DNA of 59,405 nt from Geotoga petraea. GTDB lineage: Bacteria > Thermotogota > Thermotogae > Petrotogales > Petrotogaceae. The first letter of the stretch is position 1. Each line of letters opens with the position of its first letter. This document shows positions 50,178 to 59,405 of the stretch, in pieces. The stretch covers positions 1-59,405 of the forward strand of contig NZ_FMYV01000001.1 of the NCBI RefSeq assembly GCF_900102615.1, in the 5' to 3' direction. The position numbers and the translations under genes were made by a program. The notes under the pieces are model-generated. The model worked only from the letters and a program-made list of their open reading frames with translations, searched no databases and was not told the DNA's origin.

Positions 50178-50325
50178 ACTCCATAGATACGGTTGAAAAA
50201 ATCAGTAACTAAAGCTTTTAAAAAACAGCAAAAATTAAATAAATAATCAACGCACCAGAAAAATAAAAGTCAGCATTTTGAATGATACTCACAAAAAGTA
50301 AACACAAAAATTAATTATTAAATGA

Positions 50326-50334
50326 TGGTATAAT
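50326..50334 (+). promoter_or_regulatory. extended -10 promoter of the crRNA-like RNA
   Basis: TGG-TATAAT (TGN at 50326-50328, TATAAT at 50329-50334) is an extended -10. No good -35 is visible at 17 bp, which extended -10 promoters can tolerate. Transcription would start near 50341, within the degenerate repeat. Confidence 0.6.
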
Positions 50335-50338
50335 AAAA

Positions 50339-50368
50339 AAATAACAACTATAGTTTCTATATTTAAAT
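50339..50368 (+). repeat. degenerate CRISPR repeat (pseudo-repeat) upstream of cas6
   Basis: Aligned without gaps to the array repeat, 22 of 30 positions are identical. Matches concentrate in the 5-prime TAACA.C and in an unbroken 3-prime TATATTTAAAT. The latter includes the final 8 nt (ATTTAAAT), the crRNA 5-prime handle that type I-B Cas6 would leave. Orientation is the same as in the array. Confidence 0.8.
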
Positions 50369-50425
50369 TGTTGTATTTAAATTGCAGGTAATTTAAAAAA
50401 TTCAAACAATAACACTATGTGTGTA

Positions 50426-50451
50426 AACTCCCTTTTAAAGGGAGTTTTTTT
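50426..50451 (+). terminator. terminator of the crRNA-like RNA
   Basis: AACTCCCTTT (50426-50435) pairs with AAAGGGAGTT (50437-50446), effectively an 8-bp stem with a TTAA-type loop, followed by TTTTT to 50451. The cas -35 begins 6 bp later. Confidence 0.85.
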
Positions 50452-50456
50452 ATCAT

Positions 50457-50486
50457 TTGACAATAAGTAATAAAAAGGTATACAAT
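50457..50486 (+). promoter_or_regulatory. promoter of the cas operon
   Basis: TTGACA at 50457-50462, 18-bp spacer, TACAAT at 50481-50486. A 150-nt AT-rich leader precedes cas6. The region 50483-50498 is the target of the upstream guide. Confidence 0.78.
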
Positions 50487-50503
50487 ATAAATACAACATG
50501 AAA
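50481..50503 (-). promoter_or_regulatory. predicted Cascade target site (protospacer seed plus PAM) in the cas promoter
   Basis: Read on the minus strand: TTTCA (50503-50499), then TGTTGTATTTATATTG (50498-50483), matching guide positions 1-16 except 12. It overlaps the cas -10 element. TTTCA is, to my knowledge, among the PAMs reported for a clostridial I-B system with a similar ATTTAAAT-ending repeat. Confidence 0.72.
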
Positions 50504-50635
50504 TAAAATATATTGATATATTTTATCTTTATATTAAAATATGAATAAAATAAACGATATTAAAGTGAAATAAAAAGATTTGATGATGATATAATAAAAA
50601 TATAATGTAAAACGATTAATAAAAGGAGGTATAAA

Positions 50636-51331
50636 ATGAAATATTATGAGTTGTTAACCACTGTATTTTCGAAAAAAGATATAGATTATCAAGAGATAAA
50701 CTGGCGTATTGGGGAATTGATAAATCAAAGTATGTATTTTTCTGAGGAGCTAAAAAAGTTTCATAAAGAAAATAAAATAAAGTACTATGTTTTTAGCGGA
50801 TTATCTCCAATTGAAAAAGATAAAGTTTACAAAAGGGGGAGAGTGTATTTTTTTAGATTAAAATCATTGAATAAATCATTTATTGAAGAAATCAAAAATA
50901 ATTACAATAAAATCAACAATGATTTTTTTCATATAGTTTCATCTGAAATAAATGTTTACCAACAGCAATTTATAACAAGTCTTTATACTTTAAATGCTTC
51001 AATCAGTACATTAGATGGAAATAAAGGTTATTGGAAAAAAGAAGATGGGTTAGAGTTAATAAAAGAAAGAATAAAAAACAATCTTTTAAAAAAGTATGAA
51101 AACTATTTTGAAGAAGAATTAGATTTGAAAGATGAATTTATTGAGTATATAGAAGTGATAAATAAAAAGCCTATAGTTTACAAATACAAAGATTTTAAAG
51201 TTTTAGGGAATAAATTCAATATTAAAGTAGGTACATCGGTGGAATCTCAAAAATTAGCGAAATTAGCAAATGCTGTAGGAATTTTAGAAAAAAATAGTAG
51301 CCTCGGTGGAGGATACGTTATTGGAAAATAA
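50636..51331 (+). CDS. cas6: CRISPR pre-crRNA endoribonuclease Cas6
   Basis: The 231-residue protein starts MKYYELLTTVFSKKDIDYQE and ends with the glycine-rich loop SSLGGGYVIGK, the C-terminal G-loop of Cas6 that contacts RNA, preceded by KIKVGTSVESQKLAKLANAVGILEKN-type sequence as in Cas6b. It cuts repeat RNA to give guides with an 8-nt 5-prime handle. A catalytic His may be in NDFFHIVS or KKFHKEN, not certain. AAAGGAGG precedes ATG 50636. First cas gene; it would also process the upstream crRNA-like RNA. Confidence 0.9.
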   Translation: MKYYELLTTVFSKKDIDYQEINWRIGELINQSMYFSEELKKFHKENKIKYYVFSGLSPIEKDKVYKRGRVYFFRLKSLNKSFIEEIKNNYNKINNDFFHIVSSEINVYQQQFITSLYTLNASISTLDGNKGYWKKEDGLELIKERIKNNLLKKYENYFEEELDLKDEFIEYIEVINKKPIVYKYKDFKVLGNKFNIKVGTSVESQKLAKLANAVGILEKNSSLGGGYVIGK

Positions 51332-51337
51332 AAGGAG

Positions 51338-53125
51338 GTGTTTGAAATTTTATTAGAATTGTTAAATATTTTTAGTAGAGAGTTTGAAAAAGACCCAAAT
51401 ATAATTTTAGATAACTATAGTTTAAAAGATGGAGTATATATCAAATTAGATGAAACTGGTGAAATAATAGATCATTTATTTGTAAAAAACAAAAAAGATG
51501 ATGATGAACTTTTTCATAGTGAAAAATATGAATGGTTTAAAGAGAGAGATTATTTTAGTTCAATTTTAGATACCAACAAATGTATTGATACAAAAAATAG
51601 AAAAATACATTCTAACAATTTTTTCACAATGTTTTTAAAGATGGAAAATTATAAAGAAAAAAACAATTATATCAAATTATTAAATTCACATTTTGAAAAA
51701 CTAAAAAATCCTAGATCATATGGAAGCAATGATAAAAATACTCAAAAAATATTTGACACGCTTTCTGAAACATTACCAGTAGATGATATGGATAATTATA
51801 ATATAGAAGAATATAAAAAAATTTTAATCGATAAATACGGAGATATAAAGAATCTATTAGAAGAAATTAAAGAAAAAAATAATGAAAAAGATTCTAAATT
51901 CAAGAGTTATTATTTAAAAGTATTTTTTGATAAAGATTTAGATAAATATAAAAAATTTTACGAATTATACACAAAACCGAGGATTTTTGCAAGTAATAGT
52001 TATAACAGAGAAGGTAGAGAAGGAGAAATTTACGGATTACCGATTCCAAATATTTCTTTAAATTCAAAAAAACCATTCAATCAGTTAAAAAGCACAAAAT
52101 TTGAAGCCCCATTTAGAGTATCTCCTGAACAAGCAATGGATTTATATAATTTCTTTGAATTTCTTTCTAATTTAAAAAACAGGTATTTCTATATAACTGG
52201 AAATTGTAAGTTTAAAGGAGATTACAACCAAGAAAATGTCGATAAAGAAAACTGTCATTTTATTTATAAAGAAAATGAAAATGGGAAAGCCATTATTAAA
52301 GACTATGATTATCTCATAGATTTTGATAACAATATAAATTTTGACTATAAAAAAATAATCGAACCATCTAAAAAATTAAAAATGAAAGAAGAATATAGGC
52401 CAATATCACGATTATATGAATTAGAGAGTAAGGTAGATTATTATTTTTTTAATCAAAAATTAAAAAATAATTATTTTGAAGAAAGGATACGCGACCAATC
52501 AATCAGCTCATATTTAAAAGAAATATTGATGATAACAAGAGATAGTTTTTATAATTATTTTAAGAAAAATAAAGTAAGAGATATAAAACATATTTTAACT
52601 AAATATGGAGTAGAAATAATAAAAGAGAATTTTAAAAAATCAGGAGATTATGTAATACCAGCATTTAATTTGTATATTTCAATGAAAATTTATTTTGAAT
52701 TAGGAGGAGTAGAAATGAAAGATAAAATAAGAAGTAATTTAGAGTATTTCAAAAAAAATGGAGAAGATATAACTCAATTACAAAATATTGAAGAATACTC
52801 TTTTTTAGCAGGTCAAATAGTAAAATATTTGATAGGTAAAAGTAAAAAAAGTAAAAAAACTCATGAATTAGTTTCACCATTTTTAAATTGTTCAACAGTT
52901 GAAGATATGAAACATGAAATAGCAGGATACTTTGAAAAATATAAACATGAATTGATGCTAAATCAATTTAGAGACAACCTTATATCAATTTTATTTAATT
53001 TTGAGAATGAAAAAGAAAAGATAGACTTTGACATGTTTTTTGCTGGTTATTTAACAAGAGAAAATATATTTTATTCAAATAAAGAAGATAGAGAAAATTT
53101 AAAAAAAGGAGATGAAATAATATGA
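51338..53125 (+). CDS. cas8b: type I-B Cascade large subunit Cas8b (Csh1/TM1802 family)
   Basis: About 595 residues. It occupies the large-subunit slot between cas6 and cas7. Recognisable family features are the start FEILLELLNIFSREFE, the central ARPRIFASNSYNREGREGE-like loop (TKPRIFASNSYNREG), YNFFEFLSNLKNRYFYITG with a nearby Cys pair, and a helical C-terminus (EEYSFLAGQIVKYL) typical of Csh1, where the small subunit is fused or internally translated. It recognises the PAM and recruits Cas3. The start is uncertain: GTG 51338 is part of the AAAGGAGGTG site, and the codon at normal spacing is ATT 51347. It overlaps cas7 by 4 bp. Confidence 0.85.
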   Translation: MFEILLELLNIFSREFEKDPNIILDNYSLKDGVYIKLDETGEIIDHLFVKNKKDDDELFHSEKYEWFKERDYFSSILDTNKCIDTKNRKIHSNNFFTMFLKMENYKEKNNYIKLLNSHFEKLKNPRSYGSNDKNTQKIFDTLSETLPVDDMDNYNIEEYKKILIDKYGDIKNLLEEIKEKNNEKDSKFKSYYLKVFFDKDLDKYKKFYELYTKPRIFASNSYNREGREGEIYGLPIPNISLNSKKPFNQLKSTKFEAPFRVSPEQAMDLYNFFEFLSNLKNRYFYITGNCKFKGDYNQENVDKENCHFIYKENENGKAIIKDYDYLIDFDNNINFDYKKIIEPSKKLKMKEEYRPISRLYELESKVDYYFFNQKLKNNYFEERIRDQSISSYLKEILMITRDSFYNYFKKNKVRDIKHILTKYGVEIIKENFKKSGDYVIPAFNLYISMKIYFELGGVEMKDKIRSNLEYFKKNGEDITQLQNIEEYSFLAGQIVKYLIGKSKKSKKTHELVSPFLNCSTVEDMKHEIAGYFEKYKHELMLNQFRDNLISILFNFENEKEKIDFDMFFAGYLTRENIFYSNKEDRENLKKGDEII

Positions 53126-54069
53126 AATTTAAAAAAAGAGTATACGGGGCAGTGTCGATAAAATCAAAGATGGCTAATTTTAATGCAGATTTTACAGGTA
53201 GACCAAAATCAATTTCAAGAGGAGAATATTTTGCAAGTGATAAAGCAGTAAAATTCCCTATGAAATATATGTGGGATAAAGATGGAGAAAAGGTAATGTA
53301 TATTAGATCTTATACTGAAACAGAGAACAAAAAGAAAGAAAAGAAGATAGTTCCAAGAACACTATCTGAGAGATACGAGTATTTATTTGAAACAGAAATA
53401 AATAAAAAGGATTCAAATGAAGTGATGGGGAACCTCTTTTCATGTATAGACGTTTTAAATTTTGGAGCAACATTTGCAGAAGGTGGACAAAATTTATCTA
53501 TAACAGGAGCAGTTCAATTTAATCAAGGAATGAACAAATACTCTGAAACAAAAGTAATAACACAAGATATATTATCTCCTTTTAAAGATGCAACTTCTGA
53601 AGATGCGCAGATGACATCTATAGGTAAAAAAATTGTGACAGATGAGGCCCATTATATTTATGGCTTTTCTGTAAACCCAAAATCATATGAAGAATATGAA
53701 AATATTGTAGAAGGATTTGAAGGTTATTCGGAAGAAGCATACGAAAAATTTAAAGAAGCCGCACTAATAAGCACAACAGCATTAAATACTAATTCAAAAT
53801 TTGGTTGTGAAAACGAATTAGGTATATTTGTTGAGACAAAAGAAGATTCAAAAATGTATTTACCAGATATCTCTAATTTTATAGAATTTTCAAAAAGTGA
53901 AAAAGATGTATTTGATCTTAATAAACTTGAATTTTTAAATGATTATATAGAAGAAATAGAAAAAATAGAAATATATTATAATGAATTTTTAACAGAAATA
54001 AAAATGGAAAAATTAAATAAATTACCTATAAAATTGATGAACATATATACAAAAAAAGAGGTTGAGTAA
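53122..54069 (+). CDS. cas7: type I-B Cascade backbone Cas7 (Csh2)
   Basis: The 315-residue protein begins KKRVYGAVSIKSKMANFNADFTGRPKS, typical of Csh2, and has SCIDVLNFGATFAEGGQNLSITGAVQFNQGMNKY and SKFGCENELGIFVET, with RAMP-fold glycine-rich loops. Six or so copies line the guide and bend every sixth base out of the helix. ATG 53122 overlaps the cas8b stop; AAAAAGGAGATG serves as ribosome site. Confidence 0.93.
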   Translation: MKFKKRVYGAVSIKSKMANFNADFTGRPKSISRGEYFASDKAVKFPMKYMWDKDGEKVMYIRSYTETENKKKEKKIVPRTLSERYEYLFETEINKKDSNEVMGNLFSCIDVLNFGATFAEGGQNLSITGAVQFNQGMNKYSETKVITQDILSPFKDATSEDAQMTSIGKKIVTDEAHYIYGFSVNPKSYEEYENIVEGFEGYSEEAYEKFKEAALISTTALNTNSKFGCENELGIFVETKEDSKMYLPDISNFIEFSKSEKDVFDLNKLEFLNDYIEEIEKIEIYYNEFLTEIKMEKLNKLPIKLMNIYTKKEVE

Positions 54070-54072
54070 AAA

Positions 54073-54792
54073 ATGAAAGCTCTGAAATTCAATTTGAGTG
54101 GAAAAACGGCTTTTTTTAAAAAACCAGATGTAAATCAATATGCCTATTATACTTACAACAATATACATAAAATAGCATTATTAGGAGTATTTGGAGCTAT
54201 TATAGGGTTAAAAGGATATAATCAACAAAAAAAAGAAAAATATCCAGAATTTTATGAAAAATTAAAAGATTTTAAAATATCAATAGTACCAAAGAAAAAG
54301 TATTTTGACAAAAAAATACAAATATTTAATAATACAGTCGGTTATGCTTCTCAAGAAGCTAATAACATCTTAAATGTAAGAGAACAATGGTTAGAAGAAC
54401 CAGAATGGGATATATATATATTAGAAAACCAAAGTCAGGAATATGAGAAAATAGAAAACTTCCTTTTAAATAAAAAAACCGAATATATCCCTTATTTAGG
54501 TAAAAATGATCATTCAGCAGATATAAAAGATGTAGAAAAAGTGAACCTATCAAAAGAAGAAAAAATAAACCATATAGATTCAATATTTTTAGAAAAAATA
54601 TGTGAATTAGGGATTTATCCATATGATGATGAAAATGAATATATTCTAAAAGAAAAGCAACCAATTAAATTAAACGAAATGTATAATTTCTATGAATTTG
54701 AAAATACAATATACACAAATTTAGAAATTGAAAAATTGAAAAATGGCAGCGATGTATATACTGATGGAGAAAAAATCTTGTACTTCTTCTAA
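54073..54792 (+). CDS. cas5: type I-B Cascade subunit Cas5
   Basis: The 239-residue RAMP protein begins KALKFNLSGKTAFFKKPDVNQYAYYTYNNIHKIALLGVFGAIIGL, the Cas5h/Cas5t N-terminus, where the first strand and the following glycine-rich helix cap the crRNA 5-prime handle. It lies 3 bp after cas7. In this system it would bind the handle ATTTAAAT. Confidence 0.92.
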   Translation: MKALKFNLSGKTAFFKKPDVNQYAYYTYNNIHKIALLGVFGAIIGLKGYNQQKKEKYPEFYEKLKDFKISIVPKKKYFDKKIQIFNNTVGYASQEANNILNVREQWLEEPEWDIYILENQSQEYEKIENFLLNKKTEYIPYLGKNDHSADIKDVEKVNLSKEEKINHIDSIFLEKICELGIYPYDDENEYILKEKQPIKLNEMYNFYEFENTIYTNLEIEKLKNGSDVYTDGEKILYFF

Positions 54793-54803: not shown

Positions 54804-57314
54804 ATGTATATAGACATGGGGAATTTATTAAATGAAAAAACAGTTTATGCTCATTTAAGTGAAGATAAAAAAGAAACACTAATAGAGCATACTGAATTAA
54901 CAAAAAAATATTTAAATAAAATTCTTGAAGATAAAAAAATAAAAAAAATAATAGATGATCTAATAATTAATTTAGAAATTAAGGAAAATATAAAAAGCCT
55001 TATAAATGAAATGTTTTATAACGCAATAATATTACATGATATAGGGAAAATAAATCCACTTTTCCAGATAGAAAAAATGTCAAATAAAGGCTTAAACAAA
55101 GAAAAATATAAAAATATAAATTCTACAGATCATTCCATAATATCCTCAATAATATATTCAATATATTATATAGAAAAAATATTAAAGAATTACCGATCCA
55201 ATGATGAAAAATATCCATTAATATATTTCAATTTGCTATTCTCATATAACATCTCAAGACACCATTCAAACTTAGAAAATATGGATGAATTTATAGATAA
55301 AATGAGTAATTATTATAATAAAATATTGAATAACAAAGAGTTCTTAGATTTATTATCTGAAGATATTAAAAATACAATTGTTTCAAATGAACATGGTTAT
55401 TTTTCTCAAAAATCTTATTATAAAATTGAAAGAAATTCTGAAAAAATTATAAAAGAAAATTATATAGAAAATATATTGCTAACAAAGCTAAATTATTCTT
55501 TGATAGTATCTTCGGATTATTATGCAACCTATGAGTTCTTCAATGGAGAAATAACAGATATTGGTTTGATTGATAAAAAAGAACAGATAATAGAAAACTA
55601 TCAAAGTACAGAAATTTATAAAAATATAGAGAAATACAAAAATAATGAAATGAACTTTGAAAAAATGCCAATAAATAAATTAAGAACAGAAATGTTTTTA
55701 GAAAGTGAAAATGAGTTAAAACAAAATATTGAAAAAGATATATTTTACCTGGAAGCTCCAACAGGCAGCGGAAAAACAAATACATCAATAAATTTAGCTT
55801 TAAACTTATTAGAAGTAAACAAAATGGATAAAATAATATACGTTTTCCCTTTTAACACATTAGTTGAACAAACATATGAAATTTTAAAAGAAATATTTGG
55901 ACAAGAGTTGGATCCAGTAGTAATAAATTCATTAACAGGATATTATGATAAAAAAAATGAAAAAGAATCTGAAATTGAATATTCTAAAAGTGATTATGAT
56001 CAAATATTATTAGATAGAATATTTTGGCATTATCCTTTTATAATAACAACACATGTAAATTTATTTCAAGCTTTTTTTGGTAATTCAAGAAATGCACATT
56101 ACTCTTTACTGCATCTAACAAACTCTATAATAATAATTGATGAAATACAAAGTTATAAAAATTCTTTGTGGGAAGATATAATAAATTATTTTGATAAATT
56201 TGCAAAATATTTAAATATAAAATTTATAATAATGTCTGCCACTCTTCCAAAACTAGATAAAATGCTAGAAAATAAAAAAAGTCATTTTGTTGATTTAATA
56301 AAAAAACCAGATAAATATTTTAAAAATCCTTTATTTAAAAACAGAGTAAATTTAAATTTTGAACTATTAAGAAAAGAGGGAACATCTTTCGAAACTTTAA
56401 AAAATCATATATTAGAAAACACAAAAGGAAAAGACAAAATATTAATTGAATTTATAGAAAAAAAAGAAGCTTTTAATTTCTATAAATATCTAAAAAAAGA
56501 AATAAAAAGAGATATTGAATTAATAACCTCGGATGACAATCCTATAGAAAGACAAAGAATAATATCAAAAGCTAAAAATAAAGAAGGATTCATATTAATT
56601 TCAACGCAGGTAATAGAAGCGGGAGTAGATATAGATATGGATATTGGTTATAAAAATATAGGATATTTAGATAATGAAGAGCAATTTCTTGGGAGAATTA
56701 ACAGATCTTCAAAAAAGAAAGATGCTATTGTTTATTTTTTCAAAATAACAGACCCAAAAAAAATATATAAAAATGATGCCAGAACATTATTCAATATATT
56801 AGAATATCCAGAAAATATAGAAAATTTAAAAAACAAAAACTTTAATGACTATTACAAAAATGTATTTCAAAAAATAAAAACTACCAATCAAAAGCATAAT
56901 GAAAATAGCATTGAAAGTCGTAAAAATAAAATTAAAATTTTAGATTTTAGAGGAATATCAAACGATATGAAGCTAATAGATGATGAAAAAATTCAAATAT
57001 TCTTAAATTTCGATGAAACAATTAATGGTGAAATTATATCTGGGAAAGAAGTTTGGGAAGAATTTAAAAAAATATTAGAAGAAAAAACAGAATATTCTGA
57101 AAAGAAATACAAATTATCCAAAATATATCAAAAAATGAATTATTTCTTGAAGCAAGTAAATAAATTCATAAAAAAAGAAAGCTATAGCGAAAAAATAGGA
57201 GAAATATATTATTACCCTAACGGTGAAATATTTTTTGAGGATGGAAAGTTCAGTATTGAAAAATTTAAAGATTTTGAAAAAGGAGATTTTATCCCAGAGA
57301 ATGACATTCTATAA
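54804..57314 (+). CDS. cas3: CRISPR helicase-nuclease Cas3 (HD fused to helicase)
   Basis: The 836-residue protein has an N-terminal HD nuclease: EHTELTKKYL near residue 31, ILHDIGKINP near 75 and STDHSIISS near 108, with NISRHHSN near 150. The helicase motifs follow: Walker A EAPTGSGKTNTS near 314, FPFNTLVEQ, DEIQ near 446, MSATLP near 475, STQVIEAGVDIDMD near 608 and EEQFLGRINRSSK near 630. Cas3 degrades DNA flagged by Cascade. AAAGGAG precedes ATG 54804. It is the last cas gene here; no cas4, cas1 or cas2 follows before the array. Confidence 0.95.
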   Translation: MYIDMGNLLNEKTVYAHLSEDKKETLIEHTELTKKYLNKILEDKKIKKIIDDLIINLEIKENIKSLINEMFYNAIILHDIGKINPLFQIEKMSNKGLNKEKYKNINSTDHSIISSIIYSIYYIEKILKNYRSNDEKYPLIYFNLLFSYNISRHHSNLENMDEFIDKMSNYYNKILNNKEFLDLLSEDIKNTIVSNEHGYFSQKSYYKIERNSEKIIKENYIENILLTKLNYSLIVSSDYYATYEFFNGEITDIGLIDKKEQIIENYQSTEIYKNIEKYKNNEMNFEKMPINKLRTEMFLESENELKQNIEKDIFYLEAPTGSGKTNTSINLALNLLEVNKMDKIIYVFPFNTLVEQTYEILKEIFGQELDPVVINSLTGYYDKKNEKESEIEYSKSDYDQILLDRIFWHYPFIITTHVNLFQAFFGNSRNAHYSLLHLTNSIIIIDEIQSYKNSLWEDIINYFDKFAKYLNIKFIIMSATLPKLDKMLENKKSHFVDLIKKPDKYFKNPLFKNRVNLNFELLRKEGTSFETLKNHILENTKGKDKILIEFIEKKEAFNFYKYLKKEIKRDIELITSDDNPIERQRIISKAKNKEGFILISTQVIEAGVDIDMDIGYKNIGYLDNEEQFLGRINRSSKKKDAIVYFFKITDPKKIYKNDARTLFNILEYPENIENLKNKNFNDYYKNVFQKIKTTNQKHNENSIESRKNKIKILDFRGISNDMKLIDDEKIQIFLNFDETINGEIISGKEVWEEFKKILEEKTEYSEKKYKLSKIYQKMNYFLKQVNKFIKKESYSEKIGEIYYYPNGEIFFEDGKFSIEKFKDFEKGDFIPENDIL

Positions 57315-57451: not shown

Positions 57452-59405
57452 ATCTAACATCAATAATGATTATATTTAAATAATTCTTTTTTTGCTTGTT
57501 TCATGTCTGTTAAGATTATCTAACATCAATAATGATTATATTTAAATAATTGTCAATACATGGATTAATCACATAAAGAATAGATCTAACATCAATAATG
57601 ATTATATTTAAATCGTTGTTTTTGAAAAATGGATAATATCTGATAACGTATCTAACATCAATAATGATTATATTTAAATATTATTTCTTTTTCTTCTGTT
57701 TCGTAAGTTAATATAATCTAACATCAATAATGATTATATTTAAATTTCCAACCTGCTATCTCTCCCCAACCGTCGTTTTTTATCTAACATCAATAATGAT
57801 TATATTTAAATTCTAAGACGTAAATCTAATTGATTAAAATCTTTTTCATCTAACATCAATAATGATTATATTTAAATGATACTAATTCTTCTTTATTTTT
57901 TCTGTTTGAGCGAATCTAACATCAATAATGATTATATTTAAATAAGCTCCATCAAATCCCATGAACGCTCTACCAAGCTATCTAACATCAATAATGATTA
58001 TATTTAAATTGAGGAATATTTTTTGCTTTTCTTTGCAACATATTAAATCTAACATCAATAATGATTATATTTAAATAGCGTATGCCCTGTGTTTTGAGAA
58101 TGATTGCCACTCATCTAACATCAATAATGATTATATTTAAATTAAAATTTGTAGAATACGCTCCTGTTTTTTTTATACATCTAACATCAATAATGATTAT
58201 ATTTAAATCCGAAAGGATCTTCATCTGGAGTTTCTAAATCTGCATCTAACATCAATAATGATTATATTTAAATAAAATCATACTCATTTTTACTCCTCCT
58301 TTTTTTGTTATCTAACATCAATAATGATTATATTTAAATCCATACGAGTTAACTATCTGATTTGTGTTTGGATCCATCTAACATCAATAATGATTATATT
58401 TAAATAAATACAATTTATCCGATATGTATTTTGCGTCGTATATCTAACATCAATAATGATTATATTTAAATAAATATAGTTCTATTCTTTCACTTTTAAA
58501 AAATAAAATCTAACATCAATAATGATTATATTTAAATAAACTTTTGTTCAAATCGTCTAAAAGCTTGTCTATAATCTAACATCAATAATGATTATATTTA
58601 AATCACGAAAAAGTGGACTGATAGATTATGCTTATCATGCATCTAACATCAATAATGATTATATTTAAATGGCCTACCAGTAGCATTTTTCCCGTTGTCT
58701 TTTTTTATCTAACATCAATAATGATTATATTTAAATTGTCGTGTGCAGTGTAAGGACTGTTTATAATTTCCTATCTAACATCAATAATGATTATATTTAA
58801 ATTTCCGATATCTCGCCCGTTTTGTTTCTTTCTTTTTCCATCTAACATCAATAATGATTATATTTAAATCCATGTTGCGTTCTGGACTAATTCTGGTTTG
58901 TATTCATCTAACATCAATAATGATTATATTTAAATCATATTCACATATCAACAAACTGTTAACTAACTGTTATCTAACATCAATAATGATTATATTTAAA
59001 TACGTATATTTCGTCTAATTCCATCATATAACATATTATCTAACATCAATAATGATTATATTTAAATAGATATTCCAATTCTTCTTGACTTATTCCCTCT
59101 AAGATCTAACATCAATAATGATTATATTTAAATAGTATTAATCTAAACGTTGATGAAATTGAAACTAAACATCTAACATCAATAATGATTATATTTAAAT
59201 CCTATAACTCCAGTTTGTTGCAATGTTGAAGCCAAAATCTAACATCAATAATGATTATATTTAAATACTATTATTTTATGTCTTTGAAGAAATTTAATGC
59301 CGATCTAACATCAATAATGATTATATTTAAATGCATGTCCGCAATTTCGGAGGCTATCTCTATAAAATATCTAACATCAATAATGATTATATTTAAATCT
59401 CCTTT
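57452..59405 (+). CRISPR. type I-B CRISPR array, 30 complete repeats, continues past the edge
   Basis: The repeat is 30 bp, beginning ATCTAACATC, with core ATAATGATTAT and end ATTTAAAT. First copy 57452-57481, then 57518, 57584, 57650 and so on to 59369-59398. By eye all 30 copies are identical. There are 29 full spacers of 35-37 bp (mostly 36) and 7 bp of a thirtieth. No degenerate terminal repeat is seen, so the array goes on. All spacers differ and I saw none matching this window. On the reverse strand several look coding or regulatory: the spacer at 58274-58309 holds GGAGGAG-TAAAA-ATG, and 57746-57781 reads NDGWGEIAGW. That fits mobile-element targets. Confidence 0.98.

Follow-up and report, generated by a model that had tools for sequence, protein, structure and literature searches.

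Does the short region between a MATE gene and cas6 in Geotoga petraea encode a crRNA-like RNA with which a type I-B CRISPR-Cas system represses its own cas genes? This question was addressed in a stretch of 59,405 nucleotides (the window) and, beyond it, by comparison with related type I-B loci.

The type I-B locus and its lineage

The cas genes and the array lie on the same strand, as follows.

50636-51331, + strand: cas6 (PADLOC Cas6b, E=1.6e-75)
51338-53125, + strand: cas8b (PADLOC Cas8b, E=1.8e-111)
53122-54069, + strand: cas7 (Pfam Cas_Cas7, E=3.3e-31)
54073-54792, + strand: cas5b (NCBIfam TIGR02592, E=1.8e-49)
54804-57314, + strand: cas3, with HD and helicase parts (PADLOC Cas3b, E=8e-271)
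57452-59405, + strand: CRISPR array with 30-nt repeats and mostly 36-nt spacers, running on past the window

The ORFs that follow the array beyond the window have, by eye, the order and look of cas4-cas1-cas2, and the locus is thus a type I-B CRISPR-Cas system, its interference genes being assigned by profiles and its cas4-cas1-cas2 from ORF order and sequence. No close copy of the operon was found in the other 102 of the phylum's 103 genomes examined, nor did a Cas7 search of genome contigs return any close relatives. Since such copies are lacking in the phylum and the best Cas5 matches (about 60%) come from Clostridia, the locus was probably acquired horizontally. Reverse gyrase scored over the cut-off in 31 of the phylum's 103 genomes, a count that fits Thermotogota.

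A mini-CRISPR unit upstream of cas6

The interval separating cas6 from the MATE gene contains four elements in close succession, an extended -10 element, a degenerate repeat (psi-repeat), a guide, and a terminator.

50327-50335, + strand: promoter of the CreR-like RNA, extended -10 TGGTATAAT, as read from the sequence
50339-50368, + strand: psi-repeat 1, a degenerate CRISPR repeat with 22/30 identity to the array repeat, the last 11 nt being identical
50350-50360, + strand: hairpin of psi-repeat 1 (ATAG-TTT-CTAT), in the same register as in the array repeat, with one compensated pair
50361-50368, + strand: 5' handle expected once the RNA has been processed, ATTTAAAT, equal to the 3' end of the array repeat (predicted cleavage)
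50369-50400, + strand: guide (psi-spacer) of about 32 nt, the first 16 nt matching the cas promoter (predicted 3' end)
50401-50430, + strand: tentative psi-repeat 2, 14/30 to the repeat, with a hairpin (ACAC-TAT-GTGT) at 50412-50422 and the handle lost
50425-50451, + strand: intrinsic terminator, its stem confirmed at 50425-50447

The extended -10, the degenerate repeat with its perfect 3' end, and the terminator after the guide had all been described in the initial annotation and were recovered here; a consensus scan for a -35 element of this promoter found none, and an Rfam search gave only sub-threshold matches. What that annotation did not contain was the compensated hairpin, the possible second degenerate repeat, and a promoter-like site at 50587-50595. 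The array repeat carries a stem of 4 bp with a 3-nt loop (ATAA-TGA-TTAT) directly 5' of the 8-nt handle, and psi-repeat 1 retains this stem with G-C in place of A-T at one pair. The second psi-repeat is weak in sequence, but its position is that of the clearer second repeats of relatives, in which the stem is kept and the handle lost.

The guide and the cas promoter

50457-50486, + strand: P1, the cas promoter TTGACA-18-TACAAT (11/12), with the -35 at 50457-50462 and the -10 at 50481-50486
50483-50498, - strand: guide target (protospacer), overlapping the -10 box and start region of P1
50499-50501, - strand: PAM TCA, within TTTCA over 50499-50503

The guide at 50369-50384 matches the target at 15 of 16 positions, the sole mismatch falling at position 12, and the target overlaps the best-scoring cas promoter. 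Both the match over the -10 box and the TTTCA at the PAM position stand as the initial annotation had given them. Its further claim that chance would very rarely produce such a match is upheld by dinucleotide shuffling of the 184-bp sequence ahead of cas6, in which this match length was never reached (0/20,000), and by a genome-wide search with TCA and the non-sixth positions of the guide, which found a single site in 2.17 Mb when as many as 2 mismatches were allowed. Experiments on the type I-B system of C. pasteurianum, which has the same gene order, have shown that TTTCA works there as a PAM (PMC4860712).

Protospacers of the array's own spacers were also sought as a source for the PAM, and none was convincing among phages, 100 relatives, and three viral-contig scans, the spacer list being partial because the array past the window reads N at about 59406-59997 and at 61085-62933 of the contig (G000:C1). 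A weak self-match at G000:C1:160795 was judged to be chance. Separately, 58124-58202 of the window shares 78% DNA similarity with Listeria phage LPJP1 (34155-34235) across about 79 nt of repeat and spacer, and the phage may carry a repeat-like sequence there.

Recurrence in related type I-B loci

Eighty related I-B loci were retrieved by Cas5b alignment, and 68 regions upstream of cas6, mainly of Clostridia and Campylobacterota, were compared. A unit with handle, stem, and TCA-flanked guide match was present in 27 of the 68, the window's unit included. Guides and target positions vary among these loci. Each guide has its match in the cas-upstream region of its own locus and seldom scores against that of another; as both the guide sequences and the target positions differ, guide and promoter change in step. 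Such co-variation across related cas-upstream regions had been put forward in the initial annotation as a check on its reading, and it is borne out in these 27.

This comparison is the decisive line of evidence. At a score of at least 14, which is the score of the window, TCA preceded the match in 24 loci and any other triplet in 3 at most, the other 63 triplets totalling 8, of which 3 were AAT, the end of array repeats. Because the non-TCA triplets give so few matches, the number of TCA matches expected by chance in the compared set is only about 0.1. When positions 6, 12, 18, and 24 were left out of the scoring, 18 loci with TCA were retained, as against 6-7 for the other phases, and this 6-nt mismatch phase is the pattern known for guides that Cascade reads. 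High-scoring matches in L068, L108, L125, L137, and L113 proved to be real array repeats and were discarded; the automatic best match in L071 looks like repeat-to-repeat similarity, the psi-repeat at L071:68 having a TCA match of its own.

The hairpin is conserved as well. The stem was scored in 23 sequences, namely the window's array repeat and 22 degenerate repeats from the family, and 98.9% of cells are paired, a percentage biased upwards by a detection step that demanded at least 3/4 pairs. The covariation score of the stem over the same 23 sequences was 0.553, compared with 0.175 when shuffled and at most 0.166 in slid controls. A scan requiring neither stem nor handle returned, at high-scoring guide starts, a handle of 7/8 or 8/8 in 21 cases, 20 of them 8/8, and all 4 stem pairs were present in 16 of these 21. 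In L065, L095, L102, and L130, the strict register gives 0-1 pairs, and stems appear once the loop length is left free.

These data bear on two other accounts of the unit. It could be the remnant of a CRISPR array that has degenerated, or a functionless chance match in AT-rich DNA, given that the region is about 80% A+T and that a repeat similarity of 22/30 is by itself unremarkable, being reached by chance at one other site in the window. That other site does not have the intact 3' end; moreover, the guide match, the PAM, and the stem covariation all exceed chance, and 26 other loci show this layout built from sequences that differ, which leaves decay or coincidence very improbable. Alternatively, the guide might bring Cascade to P1 not for promoter control but chiefly to act as a decoy or to prime the acquisition of spacers. 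Type I systems can, as is well established, prime from partially matched targets, but the target positions track the cas-upstream region in 27 loci and self-priming at the cell's own cas locus would be harmful, so that this account is scarcely credible.

Certain relatives show arrangements of their own. In L090, L102, L121, L133, L134, and the window, the target lies on the strand opposite to the guide unit, most others having it on the same strand, and the two layouts may have separate origins. In Clostridium tetanomorphum (L128:6249-6476), the guide targets a site just 5' of a 75-aa ORF immediately upstream of cas6 whose product looks like a helix-turn-helix regulator, through which a CreR-like guide may control cas indirectly. 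The target in Clostridium muellerianum (L107:6112-6228) precedes an ORF for a 38-aa hydrophobic peptide, possibly a CreTA/CrePA-like toxin; about 350 nt separate the end of this ORF from cas6.

A model of self-repression

Taken as a whole, the unit is very likely a CreR-type mini-CRISPR whose RNA would load Cascade, bind P1, and repress cas6-cas8b-cas7-cas5-cas3 as negative feedback. The sequence parts, the conservation, and the chance levels are computed results; that the RNA is transcribed and processed, that Cascade binds and represses P1, and that this repression can be lifted is inferred from them. Transcription of the CreR-like RNA would start near 50342 and stop at the terminator, whose last position is 50451, and Cas6 would cleave the RNA 8 nt ahead of the guide, yielding a processed RNA that begins ATTTAAATTGTTG / ATTTAAATTGTTGTATTTAAATTG and is loaded into the type I-B Cascade. 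Cascade would then bind P1 over the -10 box via the TCA PAM and the 16-nt match, the mismatch at position 12 being tolerated as a flipped-out guide position. With a guide of 32-36 nt, its full footprint from the PAM is predicted to extend over about 50463-50501, which includes the -10 box as well as the greater part of the promoter spacer. The match appears too short to favour destruction by Cas3, and Cascade would therefore stay in place as a roadblock. Feedback on the five genes would ease once crRNAs or anti-CRISPRs occupy Cascade. Self-repression of a type I-B system by a crRNA-like RNA, the central proposal of the initial annotation, thus gains support from the 27 of 68 loci, the TCA PAM, the 6-nt phase, and the conserved hairpin.

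The cas6 leader and a possible second promoter

50587-50595, + strand: P2, perhaps another promoter of cas6 (extended -10), with 24/28 identity to 50317-50344 (0/300 shuffles)

P2 resembles the promoter of the CreR-like RNA, sits outside the guide target, and may drive cas6 free of CreR control; its position means that repression may be partial. The likeness between the two promoters has no clear recurrence in relatives and is a lead specific to the window. The P1 leader of cas6 also contains a perfect AT-only inverted repeat (TAAAATATAT/ATATATTTTA, 50501-50530), possibly a stabilising hairpin.

The leader admits a different assignment of roles, in which P1 would drive a small toxic RNA silenced by the guided Cascade, making the cell addicted to Cascade, and cas would run from P2. 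The stretch of 138 nt that separates the target from cas6 has an AT-rich hairpin and the separate promoter-like P2, the architecture of CreTA is the same (PMC9458426), and some relatives have a small ORF between target and cas6. Against this, that interval in the window holds neither a terminator nor a plus-strand ORF of at least 20 aa, and in many relatives the target is just 11-106 nt from cas6, with scant room for a toxin gene. A toxin-silencing role is accordingly considered unlikely, and repression of the cas operon by a CreR-like RNA is preferred.

Under autorepression, a two-promoter arrangement is conceivable as a tentative and rather doubtful refinement, with P1 shut by CreR-guided Cascade and P2, which closely copies the CreR promoter, left uncovered. 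If this were true, basal cas expression would vary with CreR, and P1 would be a reserve freed by titration or inhibition of Cascade. To our knowledge, no such set-point circuit has been described for CreR.

Comparison with known systems

The primary paper on CreR reportedly appeared in Cell Host Microbe in 2023. CreR RNAs regulate cas genes and bring about autorepression in type I-B, I-E, and V-A systems (PMC12737573, PMC13131331, PMC12948488), type I-B autorepression being already described (PMC12737573, PMC13131331). The Geotoga petraea unit agrees with them in being a crRNA-like mini-CRISPR that has degenerate repeat(s) and adjoins a type I cas operon, in having a guide with partial complementarity to the promoter of its cognate cas genes beside a PAM (15/16, TCA), in the predicted role of Cascade as repressor, and in the absence of a toxin gene under the targeted promoter (no plus-strand ORF of at least 20 aa before cas6). 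An untranslated toxic RNA would escape such an ORF scan. It differs in its Thermotogota host, its minus-strand target over the -10 box, and its possible second, untargeted promoter; de-repression by anti-CRISPRs has been described for other members.

CreA of the type VIII toxin-antitoxin system CreTA (PMC9458426) likewise has a degenerate repeat whose 8-nt handle is intact and a partial promoter match, and the second CreTA repeat is degenerate in the handle, as are the second repeats of relatives here. CreA, however, represses a toxin RNA (PMC9458426) and the present locus has no toxin candidate, while the haloarchaeal psi-repeats are without the conserved hairpin that those of the present family possess.

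In type II systems, the long-form tracrRNA directs RNA-guided autorepression of Cas9 by partial complementarity. The principle is shared with the present unit, and the effector and the origin of the RNA are different; Cas9 autorepression is also mentioned in PMC13131331.

The Geotoga petraea unit is hence a new member of CreR and not a new kind of system, its mechanism being already known. No description of CreR in Thermotogota was found in the literature; what is new is the Thermotogota member, the rules at the family level, and the possible second, untargeted cas promoter. CRISPR autoregulation of the CreR type is thereby extended to Thermotogota, and the 27 loci provide testable rules, namely a TCA PAM, a match of about 16-23 nt, mismatches tolerated at every sixth base, and a conserved hairpin, which make CreR detectable from sequence alone and indicate co-evolution of guide and target.
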